Source: Halomonas sp. LBP4 (lineage in GTDB: Bacteria > Pseudomonadota > Gammaproteobacteria > Pseudomonadales > Halomonadaceae). Taken from it: 64,000 nt of DNA. Location of the stretch: the NCBI RefSeq assembly GCF_003202205.1, contig NZ_PDOG01000003.1, forward strand, positions 447,403-511,402. Reading direction: 5' to 3'. This document shows, piece by piece, positions 7,502 to 17,579 of the stretch. Each line of letters opens with the position of its first letter. The first letter of the stretch is position 1. The position numbers and the translations under genes were made by a program. The notes under the pieces were generated by a model. The model ran no database searches, was not told the DNA's origin, and saw nothing but the letters and a program-made list of their open reading frames with translations.

Positions 7502-8110
7502 CTATCCGTTTAACAGTGTTCTCCACAGGTACTTCATGTCCTTACGGAAGGACCAGTGTCGCATGTAGTGTAGGTTGATGCTCACTTTGTCGGGCCAGAT
7601 GACATTTCGGTTGTAGCTCTCGGGATCCTGCTGCTGCCGTAGAAGCTCCTCCTCGTGACGGTATTTCAGAGTTGCTGGTCCGGTGATACCGGGACGTACC
7701 GTCAGTAGCAGTCGTTGTTCCCCCTCCAGGGCATCGGCGAAACCCTCGACGTCTGGGCGTGGGCCCACTAAGCTCATGTCGCCGATCAGCACGTTCCATA
7801 GCTGTGGCAGCTCATCGATCTTGGTGCGTCGCAGCAGCTGTCCAAGAGGGGTGATGCGTGGGTCGTCGGCCTGGGTGACCGTCGTCGAAATGCTAGGGGT
7901 ATCGCGCATGGTGCGAATCTTGACCAGCGTGAAGGGTTGGCCTCCTATGCCGATGCGGCGCTGCATGTAGAACCCATTCCTGCCGGTATCGAGAGTGGCG
8001 GCTACCCAAGCGATGGCAATGATCCACCAGGTCAGGGCCAGCCCAAGGGTGGAGACCAGAAAGTCGAAGGTGCGTTTGAGAAGGTGTGAACTGCGGCGTG
8101 AAAGGTTCAT
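7502..8110 (-). CDS. PglC/WcaJ-like sugar transferase (monotopic phosphoglycosyl transferase)
   Basis: The 202-residue protein is a bacterial sugar transferase. It has an N-terminal hydrophobic segment (about residues 13-40) that would enter the membrane as a re-entrant helix, the KIRTMRDT stretch, and the family signature TKIDELPQLWNVLIGDMSLVGPRPD (about residues 95-120). Such enzymes move a phospho-sugar from a UDP-sugar to undecaprenyl phosphate, the first step of polysaccharide or glycan assembly. The short length (no polytopic N-terminal domain) is the PglC type. Its start overlaps the stop of the upstream gene by one base (TAATG). No other glycan genes lie nearby. Base composition is visibly lower in G+C than the flanking genes. 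Confidence 0.88.
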   Translation of the reverse strand: MNLSRRSSHLLKRTFDFLVSTLGLALTWWIIAIAWVAATLDTGRNGFYMQRRIGIGGQPFTLVKIRTMRDTPSISTTVTQADDPRITPLGQLLRRTKIDELPQLWNVLIGDMSLVGPRPDVEGFADALEGEQRLLLTVRPGITGPATLKYRHEEELLRQQQDPESYNRNVIWPDKVSINLHYMRHWSFRKDMKYLWRTLLNG

Positions 8111-9063
8111 TACTGCAGCATCGAGGTCTGGACGGGGGGGCGGAAAAAGCTGCGCCGTATCCGCTCCTGTTCCAGCAGCACGGCTATCTTCCGATACAAC
8201 CTTCCCCTCGCTCGCTCGAAGTGGCGACGAAAGGGGTAGAGGACGTGTACTGTTGGGCTAAGCAGCGGGAAGTAGACGACGTGTAGTCGGGCGTATGCCT
8301 TACGGAAGCCGAACTGGCTGATCAGGAAGTCGTGGATAGCGGTGTCATGGCTGATGCTTCGGGCGCCATCGGAGACATAGCGCATCTCACGCGCATTGAG
8401 GTAGTGACTGTTCATGGTATGGATCAGGGCATATGTAGAGTAGCGCTTGAGGGAGTCGGGATCGAGCCAGATGGAGAGATAGAAGCAGGCCTGATCCATA
8501 ACGAGATTCTCGCTGAAGGCCACCAACTTTCCGCTTGCCTTGTCGCGGACGCCCCAGAACTCGGTTTCAGGGGGAAGCTCTTGGATGGCCTTGATGAAGC
8601 CTTCTTTTGAAACGCGCTGCTCGTAGGTCTCGTACCTCTCGAAAGCGGCCAGGTAAACAGTGTGACCCTCATCGAGCAGTTGCGCCCTGTCCAGCGGGGC
8701 GGCGTCGAACTGGCGCATGCCACGCCGCACCTTGCTGCGTGTGCTGGCGCTCAGGTCATCAAGCTCCTCCTTGCCCGTCTTGATCACGTGCCACCATTCC
8801 GTCGGATTGGCACCGTCGAAGTTGGATTCCCAGCGGATCAGGAAGGCTCTATGGGAAACCAACAGTAACAAGGCGCGAATGAGGTTGACGTTGGCGTTTC
8901 GATGCGGCATGGACAGCGGTATCAAGGTGCTCTGATGCTTGCGCCACACGAAACCGTCGCTGCGAAAATACTGATAACCAATCATGAGGATATGACCTGG
9001 TAACGGAGTTGCAATCCTGATTGGGGAGCGGGCCAGGCGACTATCTGCAGCATATTGTTGCAT
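8110..9063 (-). CDS. GNAT/FemAB-like acyltransferase-related protein, unknown
   Basis: The 317-residue protein is cytosolic and has no signal peptide. Residues about 70-260 resemble the GNAT/FemAB superfamily: a basic TRSKVRRGMRQF segment, a strand-rich core (EFWGVRDKASGKLVAFSENLV), and a C-terminal DFLISQFGFRKAYARLHVVY. I cannot identify a specific family. The start at 9063 has a GAGG ribosome-binding site nine bases upstream; an internal Met at 8985 is an alternative. The gene overlaps the sugar transferase by one base, so a role in modifying the sugar or lipid-linked intermediate, analogous to the PglC/PglD pairing, is a reasonable inference. G+C is lower than in neighbours, suggesting transfer. 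Confidence 0.6.
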   Translation of the reverse strand: MQQYAADSRLARSPIRIATPLPGHILMIGYQYFRSDGFVWRKHQSTLIPLSMPHRNANVNLIRALLLLVSHRAFLIRWESNFDGANPTEWWHVIKTGKEELDDLSASTRSKVRRGMRQFDAAPLDRAQLLDEGHTVYLAAFERYETYEQRVSKEGFIKAIQELPPETEFWGVRDKASGKLVAFSENLVMDQACFYLSIWLDPDSLKRYSTYALIHTMNSHYLNAREMRYVSDGARSISHDTAIHDFLISQFGFRKAYARLHVVYFPLLSPTVHVLYPFRRHFERARGRLYRKIAVLLEQERIRRSFFRPPVQTSMLQ

Positions 9064-14079: not shown

Positions 14080-15159
14080 ATGACACAGAAGATTCTGGTA
14101 CTGCCGGGCGACGGCATCGGTCCCGAGATCACCGCCCAGGCCAGCCGCGTGCTGGCCGCCTGCCAGGCCCGCGGCCTGGACGTCGAGGTCGAAGAGGCCC
14201 TGGTGGGCGGCAGCGCCTACGACGCCCATGGCGAGCCGCTGCCGGCCGCGACCCTGGAGAAGGCCAGGGGTGCCGACGCCATCCTGCTGGGCGCCGTGGG
14301 CGGCCCGAAGTGGGACACCATCGAGGACCTGGCCAAGCGCCCCGAGAAGGGCCTGCTCGGCCTGCGCAAGAACCTCGGCCTGTTCGGCAACCTGCGTCCG
14401 GCGATCCTCTACCCGCAGCTCGCCGACGCCTCGAGCCTCAAGCCCGAGGTGGTGTCGGGGCTGGACATCATGATCGTGCGCGAGCTGACCGGCGGCATCT
14501 ATTTCGGCCAGCCCCGCGGCATCGAGGAGCGTGACGGCGAGCGGGTGGGCTTCAACACCTATGTCTACGCCGAGTCCGAGATCGAGCGTATCGGTCGCGT
14601 GGCCTTCGAGATGGCTCGCAAGCGCCACAAGAAGCTCTGCAGCGTCGACAAGGCCAACGTGCTCGAGGTCACCATCCTGTGGCGCGAGGTAATGGAGCGC
14701 CTGGCGCCGGAGTATCCCGACGTCGAGCTCTCGCACATGTACGTCGACAACGCCGCCATGCAACTGGTGCGGGCGCCCAAGCAGTTCGACGTGATCGTCA
14801 CCGGCAACATGTTCGGCGACATCCTGTCGGATGCTGCGGCCATGCTCACCGGCTCCATCGGCATGTTGCCCTCGGCGTCGCTCAACGAGTCCGGGCAGGG
14901 CATGTACGAACCCTGCCACGGCAGCGCTCCGGACATTGCCGGCCAGAATGTTGCCAACCCGCTGGCCACCATCCTCTCGGTGGCCATGATGCTGCGCTAT
15001 TCGCTGAACGAACCCGCGCTCGCCGAGTGCATCGAGGCCGCCGTGGGCAAGGTGCTGGACGACGGTCTGCGAACCGCGGATATTGCCTCGGCAGGCACAC
15101 GCACCGTCTCCACCACGGAGATGGGCGACGCCGTGCTGGCGGCCTTCGAGGCGGCGTGA
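14080..15159 (+). CDS. leuB: 3-isopropylmalate dehydrogenase
   Basis: LeuB oxidatively decarboxylates 3-isopropylmalate to 2-oxoisocaproate using NAD+, the third step of leucine synthesis. The 359-residue protein opens [15 protein letters not shown] and carries the family features: [18 protein letters not shown] with substrate-binding arginines, the DKANVLEV segment, and [25 protein letters not shown] with the metal-binding aspartates. An AAGGA site precedes the ATG. It is separated from leuD by a repeat element but is in the same direction, so it may still be co-transcribed. It converges with the HprK-like gene 15 nt downstream. Confidence 0.97.
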
Positions 15160-15174
15160 GTCGCCGGCGCGGCA

Positions 15175-16197
15175 TCAGGCATCACGTCTTGCGGCCTCAT
15201 GGATGAGTGCCACCAGTGGGGCCAGGCTCTGTTCCATGTCGTCGAGTGACCAGGGGCGCCGATACCGGTAGACCCTGATGCGCCGGGCCAGGTCGGCGGC
15301 ATGGGTCATCAGGCGCGCCGGACCGTTGAACGTCCTTCCCCATTCCAGGTGATAGAGAGAGGCCGCGACCACCCTGAACGCCTCCCGGCCGTTCAGCGGT
15401 TCCAGAGTGGCGTCCTCTCCCTCCCCGGCTCGTTCCAGCGTGACCAGTGCCCGCAACGGTTGCGCATAGGTGCGGAAACCGTGGTGCTGAATGAGGTGGT
15501 ACCTGTCGGCCCGCGACGGGTCCCTCACCAGGTCGCGAGGGTCGATTCCCAGAGTGGCCAGGGCACCGTCCCAGAGTTTGAGGCGAGGCGGGCCCGGGTA
15601 CAGGTAGGGAGGTGTCTCGCCTGGCCTGATCACCCCGACGTCGTCGCTCACCAGGGGCCAGCCTTGGCAGTAGTGCAGCCAGGCGGCCAGGGTCGATTTG
15701 CCTGCGCCGGCATCGCCGGTGAAGCCCCATACGCCGGATGGCGTCTCCAGGGCACTGAGCTGGAGGGGAAGCCAGTGCTTCTGATGCAGCAGGGCGCCGA
15801 GAGCGGTGCTGAGCAGGTAGTGTCGCAGGTCCTCGTCGGGCGGGCTGGCTCCTGGCTTCAGCGGCACCCGCCTGTCGAGCTGGATTCGCCGACCCTGCTC
15901 GACCCGGCAGCGAGCGATGCCCTCGCAGCAGAATTGGCAGCGGTCTTCCGAGTACTGCAACCCGGGCTCGCTCCCATCGGAGTCTTCGAGCATGTCTGGA
16001 AGGTCGTCGGCGACGATCTCCACATCTGCTGCCATGCCGGGCGGGAGAGGGCGCAGTTCCGGGAACTCGAGTTGCGAGGAGAGCCTGAGCCCGTAGGTGG
16101 AGTAGAAATGGGGCGAGACGGTGGGACTGGGGTGCCCGCGCCGTTCATTGGGCGTCATGCCCCTTCGATAGGCCGAACAGTCGTTGTCGTAGTGCAT
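15175..16197 (-). CDS. HprK-like (HPr kinase/PEPCK-fold) orphan kinase
   Basis: The 340-residue protein resembles HprK-related kinases. It has an N-terminal region without recognised motifs (1-150), then a P-loop GFTGDAGAGKSTLAAW near residue 180 and PLVSDDVGVIRP about 25 residues later, the Walker-B-like aspartates typical of HPr kinase and ATP-PEPCK folds. Full HprK also needs an N-terminal phosphatase/regulatory domain and a conserved EVRG-type loop that I do not see, so this is a kinase-related branch. Relatives often sit in peptide-modification, lasso-peptide or GAK gene sets; none of those partners is present here. ATG 16197 is the longest start; ATG 16158 is a good alternative. The gene interrupts the widely conserved leuB-asd junction and has its own strong promoter. 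Confidence 0.7.
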   Translation of the reverse strand: MHYDNDCSAYRRGMTPNERRGHPSPTVSPHFYSTYGLRLSSQLEFPELRPLPPGMAADVEIVADDLPDMLEDSDGSEPGLQYSEDRCQFCCEGIARCRVEQGRRIQLDRRVPLKPGASPPDEDLRHYLLSTALGALLHQKHWLPLQLSALETPSGVWGFTGDAGAGKSTLAAWLHYCQGWPLVSDDVGVIRPGETPPYLYPGPPRLKLWDGALATLGIDPRDLVRDPSRADRYHLIQHHGFRTYAQPLRALVTLERAGEGEDATLEPLNGREAFRVVAASLYHLEWGRTFNGPARLMTHAADLARRIRVYRYRRPWSLDDMEQSLAPLVALIHEAARRDA

Positions 16198-16290
16198 CTT
16201 CTGCGATCCCCACCACCGATAGTGGTGCTCTTGATGTCCAGGAACGCAGCGCAGACTGATCCGACACCGAGTGCCGGTATCCGAGGGTGC

Positions 16291-16348
16291 TGGTAATGTT
16301 GCATTATATTACCATGCTGCCAGTTTTGTCAACTTATGTTACTGGCAG
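16291..16348. promoter_or_regulatory. Two dyad operators overlapping the kinase promoter
   Basis: Two perfect inverted repeats bracket the promoter elements. TGGTAAT (16291-16297) with ATTACCA (16308-16314) surrounds the -10, and CTGCCAGT (16317-16324) with ACTGGCAG (16341-16348) surrounds the -35. Such an arrangement is typical of a repressor site blocking an otherwise very strong promoter. The regulator is not evident in the window. Confidence 0.5.
16303..16332 (-). promoter_or_regulatory. Perfect sigma70 promoter of the HprK-like gene
   Basis: On the minus strand a consensus -35 (TTGACA, 16327-16332) and a consensus -10 (TATAAT, 16303-16308) are 18 bases apart. Both hexamers are exact, which is rare in a genome this rich in G+C. 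Transcription would begin near 16296, leaving a leader of about 100 nt before ATG 16197. Confidence 0.75.
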
Positions 16349-16428
16349 GTGGGTTGAGCCTGTGCAGCGGCGGTCAACCCCGGGGGCGATCGAGCCTGGT
16401 GCCATCTGCCCGGCGCGGCAGGCTCGTG

Positions 16429-16434
16429 TATAAT
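16429..16434 (+). promoter_or_regulatory. Candidate -10 of asd
   Basis: An exact TATAAT lies 33 bases upstream of the asd start. No convincing -35 sits at the right distance, so only the -10 is proposed. Confidence 0.35.
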
Positions 16435-16466
16435 ATGGGCCACATTCAATTTCAGGAGGACTTCAC

Positions 16467-17579
16467 ATGTTGAAAGTCGGTTTCGTCGGTTGGCGCGGCA
16501 TGGTGGGCTCGGTGCTCATGCAGCGCATGGTGGAAGACGGGGATTTCAATGGCATCGAGCCGGTCTTCTTCACCACCTCCCAGGTCGGCCAGGCCGGCCC
16601 CGACGTCGGCGTCGACGTGCCTCCGCTCAAGGACGCCTTCGACCTCGAGGCCCTCAAGGCGCTGGACGTGGTGATCACCTGCCAGGGCGGCGACTACACC
16701 AAGGAGGTCTACGCCGACCTGCGTGGCGCCGGCTGGAAAGGCTACTGGATCGACGCCGCCAGCACCCTGCGCATGGTGGACGAGGCGACCATCATCCTCG
16801 ACCCGGTCAACCGTCACGTCATCGATGCCCAACTGGCCAGGGGGGCGAAGACCTTCGTCGGCGGCAACTGCACCGTCAGCCTGATGCTGATGGGCCTCGG
16901 CGGCCTGTTCGAGGCCGACCTGATCGAGTGGATGACCTCCATGACCTATCAGGCCGCCTCTGGCTCCGGCGCCAAGCACATGCGCGAACTGCTCAACCAG
17001 ATGGGCGCGCTGCGTGACAGCGCGGCCGCCGAACTGGCCGATCCGTCCAGCGCGATCCTCGACATCGACCGCAAGGTCACCGCGGCCATGCGCAGCGGCG
17101 ACTTCCCCACCGACAACTTCGGTGCGCCGTTGGCCGGCAGCCTGCTGCCCTGGATCGACGTCAAGCGCGACAATGGCCAGAGCAAGGAGGAGTGGAAGGG
17201 GAGTGTCGAGACCAACAAGATCCTCGGCCTGCAGGACAACCCGATCCCCATCGATGGGCTCTGCGTGCGCATCGGTGCCATGCGCTCCCACAGCCAGGCC
17301 TTCACCATCAAGCTGAAGAAGGACGTACCGATCGACGAGATCGAGGACCGCCTGGCCAGGCACAACGAATGGGTCAAGGTGATTCCCAACGACAAGGACG
17401 CCACCATCGCCGGCCTGACGCCGGCGGCCGCCACCGGCACCCTGAGCGTGCCCGTGGGCCGGCTGCGCAAGCTGGCCATGGGTGGCGAGTACCTCTCCGC
17501 CTTCAGCGTCGGCGACCAGCTGCTGTGGGGCGCGGCCGAGCCGCTCAAGCGGATGCTGAAGATCCTGCGCGAGCAATAA
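16467..17579 (+). CDS. asd: Aspartate-semialdehyde dehydrogenase
   Basis: Asd reduces aspartyl phosphate to aspartate semialdehyde, the branch point to lysine/diaminopimelate, threonine and methionine. The 370-residue protein starts [17 protein letters not shown] with the NADP-binding glycine motif. The catalytic cysteine is in [15 protein letters not shown] (about residue 135), and the substrate-binding stretch [15 protein letters not shown] follows. An AGGAGG site precedes the ATG. A clear terminator follows the gene. Length and sequence match the gammaproteobacterial type. Confidence 0.97.

Follow-up and report, generated by a model that had tools for sequence, protein, structure and literature searches.

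We analysed a window of 64,000 nucleotides from Halomonas sp. LBP4 (contig NZ_PDOG01000003.1, positions 447,403 to 511,402 of the forward strand), in which a gene for an HprK-like protein, here called K, lies between leuB and asd. The reading frame of K is intact and encodes 340 amino acids from its ATG, or 327 from a possible alternative start. It is on the strand opposite to both neighbors, and its stop codon is 15 bases away from that of leuB. An HprK-like frame with the motifs GDAGAGKST and then SDDVGVI, noted in the preliminary description of this locus, is present as claimed, on the minus strand. The range given there, 15175-16348, does contain the intact frame, but the frame ends at 16197, and the extra 151 bases have no in-frame start; they include a promoter match pointing into K. 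Elsewhere in the window, a minus-strand frame of 225 codons (8110-8787) has a weak coding score and no Pfam match.

Features of the leuB-asd interval in the window (positions are those of the window).
Feature	Position	Strand	Evidence
leuB, convergent with K	14080..15159	+	NCBIfam, above cut-off
Solo gene K, HprK-like, lasso-peptide tailoring kinase origin	15175..16197	-	homology, neighbourhoods
Codons 185-186 of K, Asp-Asp pair, intact in the window; Asp-Glu in the other solo lineage	15640..15645	-	
Codon 167 of K, Walker A Lys, intact in the window; Ile or Thr in the G044/G074/G015a/G046a lineage	15697..15699	-	
Codon 146 of K, CAG (Gln); catalytic His in 38/38 cluster-type kinases	15760..15762	-	sequence, alignment
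N-terminal region of K, residues 1-125, common to lasso-cluster kinases	15823..16197	-	alignments
Promoter match TTGACA-18-TATAAT, perfect, toward K	16303..16332	-	1 found in 15000-16600 vs mean 0.2 in shuffles
asd, divergent from K	16467..17579	+	NCBIfam, above cut-off

With a stricter promoter pattern, three of 25 K copies had an upstream match (those of the window, of G044, and copy a of G046). G033 is not among them, and the near-match TTGACA-18-TATACT upstream of its K was read by eye. The words GTAAC/GTTAC, a motif picked after inspecting the sequences, occur 20 times upstream of the 25 K copies, compared to 7.2 in shuffles, with no fixed spacing; in the window they are found at 16303-16355, and a shared operator is possible.

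The preliminary description considered the leuB-asd junction to be normally uninterrupted and K to be alone in it, and both statements agree with our data. We examined the junctions at the 30 top-scoring asd matches from 88 genomes of the genus and found K at nine of them. The 21 junctions without K comprise 19 short gaps of about 78-320 bases (the distances are approximate, because tblastn ends vary), one IS481-family transposase, and one case without leuB within 1.5 kb. The neighbor of asd is an IS481-family transposase in G023 (L115 2810-3823), while in G070 the adjoining sequence (L117 2758-3825) encodes a SlyA-type regulator and has a weak match to universal stress protein. The interval between leuB and asd apparently accommodates insertions.

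Homologues of K within the family have 43-79% identity to it, mostly over near full length, which is far beyond chance. The K of the window is homologous over nearly its full length to kinases encoded in lasso-peptide biosynthetic clusters, and its identity to the cluster kinases of the family is 43-60%. A more distant homologue, on a Priestia plasmid, has 27% identity over residues 26-315 of K (E 5e-27) and adjoins an annotated lasso peptide of the paeninodin family; the plasmid record labels the kinase of this cluster (L157 4980-5915) as 'aldolase'. This alignment places K in the family of the paeninodin-cluster kinase and shows that its N-terminal half is of a known kind. The N-terminal region, previously singled out as long and of unknown fold, is by homology neither special nor a new domain, since the alignment with a kinase beside an annotated paeninodin-family peptide begins at residue 26.

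Other searches were less informative. No Pfam model, including Hpr_kinase_C, matched K above cut-off, and a search of the whole genome of the window for Hpr_kinase_C (PF07475) found no match. In HPr kinase/phosphorylase (PF07475), the order of the His, the P-loop and the Asp-Asp pair resembles that of K. The absent Hpr_kinase_C match does not support K as an HPr kinase/phosphorylase, and the assignment as HprK_rel_A (TIGR04352) was rejected because the weak match of this model to residues 85-195 scored 27.7 bits versus a cut-off of 200 bits. A PDB sequence search with K returned one chance-level match, and a PDB profile search returned only weak P-loop matches, to MetN. The AlphaFold2 model of the window protein with two relatives had a mean pLDDT of 36 and was not used.

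We surveyed the neighbourhoods of K in related genomes. The first search detected a K homologue (E <=0.001) in 25 of 195 related genomes, 23 of them within the family, and a wider search brought the number to 37 of 275 family genomes. As lasso partners we counted the nucleotidyltransferase N, the ABC transporter D, B1, B2, the cyclase C and the precursor A. At least two of these genes lie near K in 19 of the 23 genomes of the first search; the wider search contributed 14 more genomes, 12 of them with such partners. Thus, of 37 genomes, 31 have lasso partners, four have a solo K (the window genome, G000, and G033, G044 and G074), and two were left unassigned. G322 has an intact pair of K genes with no partner seen; its contig, of 12.5 kb, stops 1.7 kb beyond the pair. 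In G342 (74% complete), K is frameshifted, its pieces keep the H, K, D, D residues, and the only partner nearby is a B1-like match. In G006, only N and D are visible before the contig ends. It should be noted that the K copies were read from tblastn places with heuristic starts, and that the partners were named by models at two loci (L042 and L053) and scored by tblastn at the others. At these two loci, PF14907 (NTP_transf_5), the ABC transporter, B2 (NF033537) and PqqD/B1 were above the Pfam or NCBIfam cut-offs; the cyclase is asparagine-synthetase-like, and lasso cyclase was its best NCBIfam model, with a score under the cut-off.

In seven of the 19 genomes from the first search, the cluster lies at the leuB-asd junction itself. 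Both flanks are seen around it in five (G015, G046, G038, G016 and G022), and in G072 and G045 asd is on one side and the contig ends before leuB. The order between asd and leuB in these relatives is K-N-D / B1-A-C-B2. The view of K as an orphan with no known pathway is therefore contradicted by the 31 of 37 family genomes in which it is near at least two lasso-peptide genes, and by the seven in which they share its junction. Among the matches listed in a literature search, mostly non-subscription papers, none dealt with a solo lasso kinase or a lasso cluster at leuB-asd.

Precursor-like open reading frames were found in the clusters. We aligned 14 of them, with a W-x-x-P-x-L leader and a Thr before the likely core; Glu occupies the presumed ring position in 13, and all 14 end in Ser, a count that is biased because the 14 were picked by hand from 27 rows and the frames had been pre-filtered for Ser/Thr at or near the end or for T-x-[GASC]. 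The C-terminal Ser is the site phosphorylated by PadeK, ThcoK, SyanK and PsmK, according to the available text of PMC9266682 and PMC8498205, while BsfK phosphorylates Ser3 of the core instead (PMC10368454, available text). Several variants of the arrangement were seen. G117 has a row of four precursor-like genes with Ser ends and a Y-x-[PA]-P leader (L050 15085-16890), near C, B1, B2, N and D. A precursor-like frame at L051 19017-19190 has an aromatic- and Lys-rich core and no Asp/Glu at the ring position. Tandem K pairs with the catalytic residues intact in both copies occur in two other genera of the family (L143, L144, L146, L147, L150 and L151), perhaps serving two substrates or two sites.

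The relatives of K, in clusters with N, D, B1, A, C and B2 and with Ser-ending precursors, are similar to the type with a kinase and a nucleotidyltransferase known from pseudomycoidin (PMC9266682, in the text available). The likeness of K to PadeK, ThcoK, SyanK and PsmK of the paeninodin and pseudomycoidin systems is drawn through its homology, over residues 26-315, to the kinase of the paeninodin-family cluster, and not from these four sequences. Unlike those systems, the K of the window has no cluster, no precursor was found for it, and Gln replaces His. For BsfK from Bradymonas sediminis, residues H148, G163, K169, S170, D186 and D187 have a spacing close to that of K residues 146, 161, 167, 168, 185 and 186, and its cluster also has N; however, BsfK is active and phosphorylates its peptide core, whereas the K of the window is without the His (for BsfK, the accessible part of PMC10368454).

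We also searched for the partners of K elsewhere. In the window genome (60 contigs, rated 100% complete), B2, N (NTP_transf_5) and the cyclase C were not found, nor was an A-type precursor (profile search, best E 5.5; the profile covers the W-x-x-P type only, and other types would escape it). A set of A, B1, B2 and C was found neither beside K nor in its genome. The four PqqD-domain places in this genome are two PQQ operons, the end of an HprK-like protein, and a frame of 829 residues; both operons (L158 6143-7577 and L159 5223-6649) have pqqD and pqqE above cut-off. B2, N, C, the A-type precursor and Hpr_kinase_C were likewise not found in G033, G044 and G074, where weak B2 matches of 20.6-22.2 bits, below the 26-bit cut-off, are in frames of 713-904 residues. 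By its own account, the preliminary description would be refuted if close homologues always belonged to an already described HprK-dependent pathway with its other genes elsewhere in this genome; the pathway half of this largely holds, but B2, N, C and A were not found there. That K is without HPr is correct for its neighbourhood but not for the genome, which has three HPr-domain places and encodes an HPr protein of ordinary size. All six genomes tested have HPr, whether or not they carry a cluster, and its presence in the cluster-bearing G015 and G038 means that it is no marker of a solo K.

A second HprK-like protein, of 400 amino acids and with a C-terminal PqqD domain, is encoded on another contig of the window genome (L160 5779-6981), and in G033 (L162 5361-6551). 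It scores 26.8 of 200 bits with HprK_rel_A and 28.6 of 35 with PqqD_rel_X, and its His, Lys and Asp-Asp motifs seem, by eye, to be present. The adjacent frame of 110 amino acids with a TAT-like N terminus (L160 7008-7340) could be its substrate. Of 90 genomes of the genus, 29 encode this protein, including those of the window and G033; it is absent in G044 and G074, and hence does not track the solo K. Of the two proteins, it may have the better claim to represent an HprK-like system that is still uncharacterised.

The active site of K differs sharply between the two kinds of neighbourhood. The residues His-Lys-Asp-Asp at positions 146, 167, 185 and 186 are intact in 38 of 38 cluster-type copies (two of these, from G322, have no partner in view), compared to none of the six solo-lineage copies; the six are related, so that this zero does not represent six independent events. 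The K of the window has Gln146-Lys167-Asp185-Asp186 and that of G033 has N, K, D, D; the residues are H, I, D, E in G044 and R, I, D, E in G074, and the first copies of two tandem pairs have H, T, D, E (G015a) and H, I, D, E (G046a). The 19 copies from the later survey, 17 of them with partners, served as a fresh check, and the tetrad was intact in all 19. The residue count does not include the frameshifted K of G342; neither it nor the tree includes G158, G173 and a second G011 match, all set aside as distant, and G173a was in the first tree. Each solo-lineage copy has changes at 5-8 of the 70 positions that are invariant in 19 cluster copies, compared to 0-5 when cluster copies were left out singly (0-2 in 17 of the 19). 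Among the invariant sites, three of the four in the tetrad had changed, versus seven of the remaining 48 (Fisher p 0.019, permutation p 0.009), a modest enrichment in a test that counts related sequences as independent.

The same four residues are required in the work on PadeK and ThcoK, according to a review (PMC9266682, available part), and variants of BsfK at H148, K169, D186 and D187 lost activity to varying degrees (PMC10368454, available part). Since the catalytic His is Gln in the window, the earlier label 'kinase' is doubtful, although the HprK-like assignment stands, and the activity of this K has probably been lost or strongly reduced. Counterpoints are the graded loss of activity in the BsfK variants and the retention of K167, D185 and D186 in the window.

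In the unrooted tree of 25 kinases, two supported solo groups are inside a supported clade of 13, all located at leuB-asd or next to asd. A single solo origin uniting the six kinases is not rejected (AU p 0.50), and 28% of bootstrap trees unite them; all six have Lys140, compared to Arg in the 19 cluster copies. Because K is cluster-linked elsewhere in the tree, the most economical view is that the solo state is the derived one. Downstream of copy a, G015 and G046 both have 24 bases that match the 3' end of leuB, and then sequence like that upstream of copy b. The simplest reading of this arrangement would be that K next to leuB came first and the cluster with copy b later. In G046, a frameshift near the C terminus affects the first K copy (L046 near 9378), and the second copy is intact.

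The solo genes are under selective constraint. The dN/dS values (NG86) of solo pairs are 0.45 (0.29-0.70) and 0.41 (0.27-0.57), with intervals that exclude 1, compared to 0.29 (0.14-0.46), 0.24 and 0.15 for cluster pairs and 0.08-0.12 for asd and leuB; the interval of the first cluster pair, G015b/G046b, overlaps those of the solo pairs. YN00 gave 0.33-0.42 within solo lineages and 0.19-0.34 for cluster pairs (0.34 for G016/G022); across the solo lineages, G000/G015a gave 0.13 (with dS of 2), compared to 0.36 by NG86. For the four solo genes, a fit with omega=1 fell short by 75 log units, at the best kappa of the six tried. On a grid for the whole gene, omega was 0.25 for the four solo genes and 0.3 for all six, versus 0.25 for the b-clade cluster set and 0.10 for the other. 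In the kinase domain it was 0.25 for the solo sets and 0.15 and 0.10 for the cluster sets, and in the N-terminal region 0.3 (solo) versus 0.35 and 0.15 (cluster). Relaxation is thus clear in the kinase domain and less so for the whole gene; the omega sets include any time before cluster loss, and so do the pair values if the losses were separate. The four solo genes contain no internal stop codons, and no frameshifts were seen in their alignment. In a neutral simulation of substitutions only, with all differences placed on one copy, the probability of remaining free of stops was 0.031 for G000/G033 and 0.014 for G044/G074.

Taken together, these results leave little doubt that K originated as a lasso kinase, and they make it probable that it is a tailoring kinase left stranded from a lasso-peptide cluster, with impaired catalysis and under relaxed selection. 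While in its cluster, K is most likely to have acted on the linear precursor, phosphorylating its C-terminal Ser, as characterised homologues and the Ser-ending precursors suggest. In the lineage of the window, the rest of the cluster would have been lost up to the leuB stop codon, leaving K alone. Its active site has degraded, with Gln in place of the His of the tetrad. The intact Walker A motif suggests that K probably still binds ATP, and its residues suggest that it phosphorylates poorly or not at all. It appears to be kept under relaxed but real purifying selection, which makes a non-catalytic or weak residual role somewhat likelier than none. We slightly favour some retained function, and K is perhaps kept for a non-catalytic role.

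The alternatives differ in what they take K to do at present. If K were a functionless relic in neutral decay, intact because too little time has elapsed, the loss of active-site residues, the changes at otherwise invariant positions in every solo-lineage copy, the raised kinase-domain omega and the C-terminal frameshift in copy a of G046 would all fit; however, the four solo genes have no internal stops, an outcome of low probability in the neutral simulation of substitutions, and no visible frameshifts, and both the rejection of omega=1 and the pair intervals argue against this explanation, which we regard as unlikely, if still of some weight. We give similar, limited credence to a repurposed pseudokinase, which would be kept for binding (of, for example, the leader or C-terminal parts of a lasso precursor, of peptides from neighbours, or of ATP) with no phosphorylation. 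The greater change at catalytic sites than at other invariant sites, the retention of most invariant positions, the promoter match upstream of K, and, in one lineage, signs that the solo arrangement predates the tandem one are consistent with it, but the role has no identified partner or ligand, the catalytic-site enrichment is modest and takes no account of the relatedness of the sequences, and omega in the kinase domain is relaxed.

A more specific possibility, which is doubtful, is that K was domesticated after cluster loss as a stand-alone pseudokinase for binding, e.g., blunting the lasso peptides of cluster-bearing relatives, with two lineages losing different catalytic residues. Improbable to a greater degree is an active orphan kinase with a new or HPr-like cellular target, as the preliminary description proposed. 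The Walker A Lys and the Asp-Asp pair are intact in the window and G033, purifying selection is evident, and HPr is encoded elsewhere in the genome. Against this, the catalytic His has been lost in the window (Gln) and in G033 (Asn), HPr is also present in the cluster-bearing G015 and G038, and there is no Hpr_kinase_C match; moreover, the sister solo lineage lost the Lys and an Asp instead, suggesting that catalysis is not what is being kept. A new HprK pathway is not needed to explain K.

With K read as a stranded tailoring kinase, what looked like a new kinase pathway becomes a legible example of the death of a natural-product cluster, in which one gene remains at the old address and has lost catalytic residues, yet is intact in several species. 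The survey also reveals lasso clusters with a kinase, a nucleotidyltransferase and Ser-ending precursors in relatives of Halomonas. The purpose of lasso-peptide phosphorylation is still open, as stated in the available text of a review (PMC9266682), and the question might be approached through a kinase gene that has persisted after the loss of its peptide.
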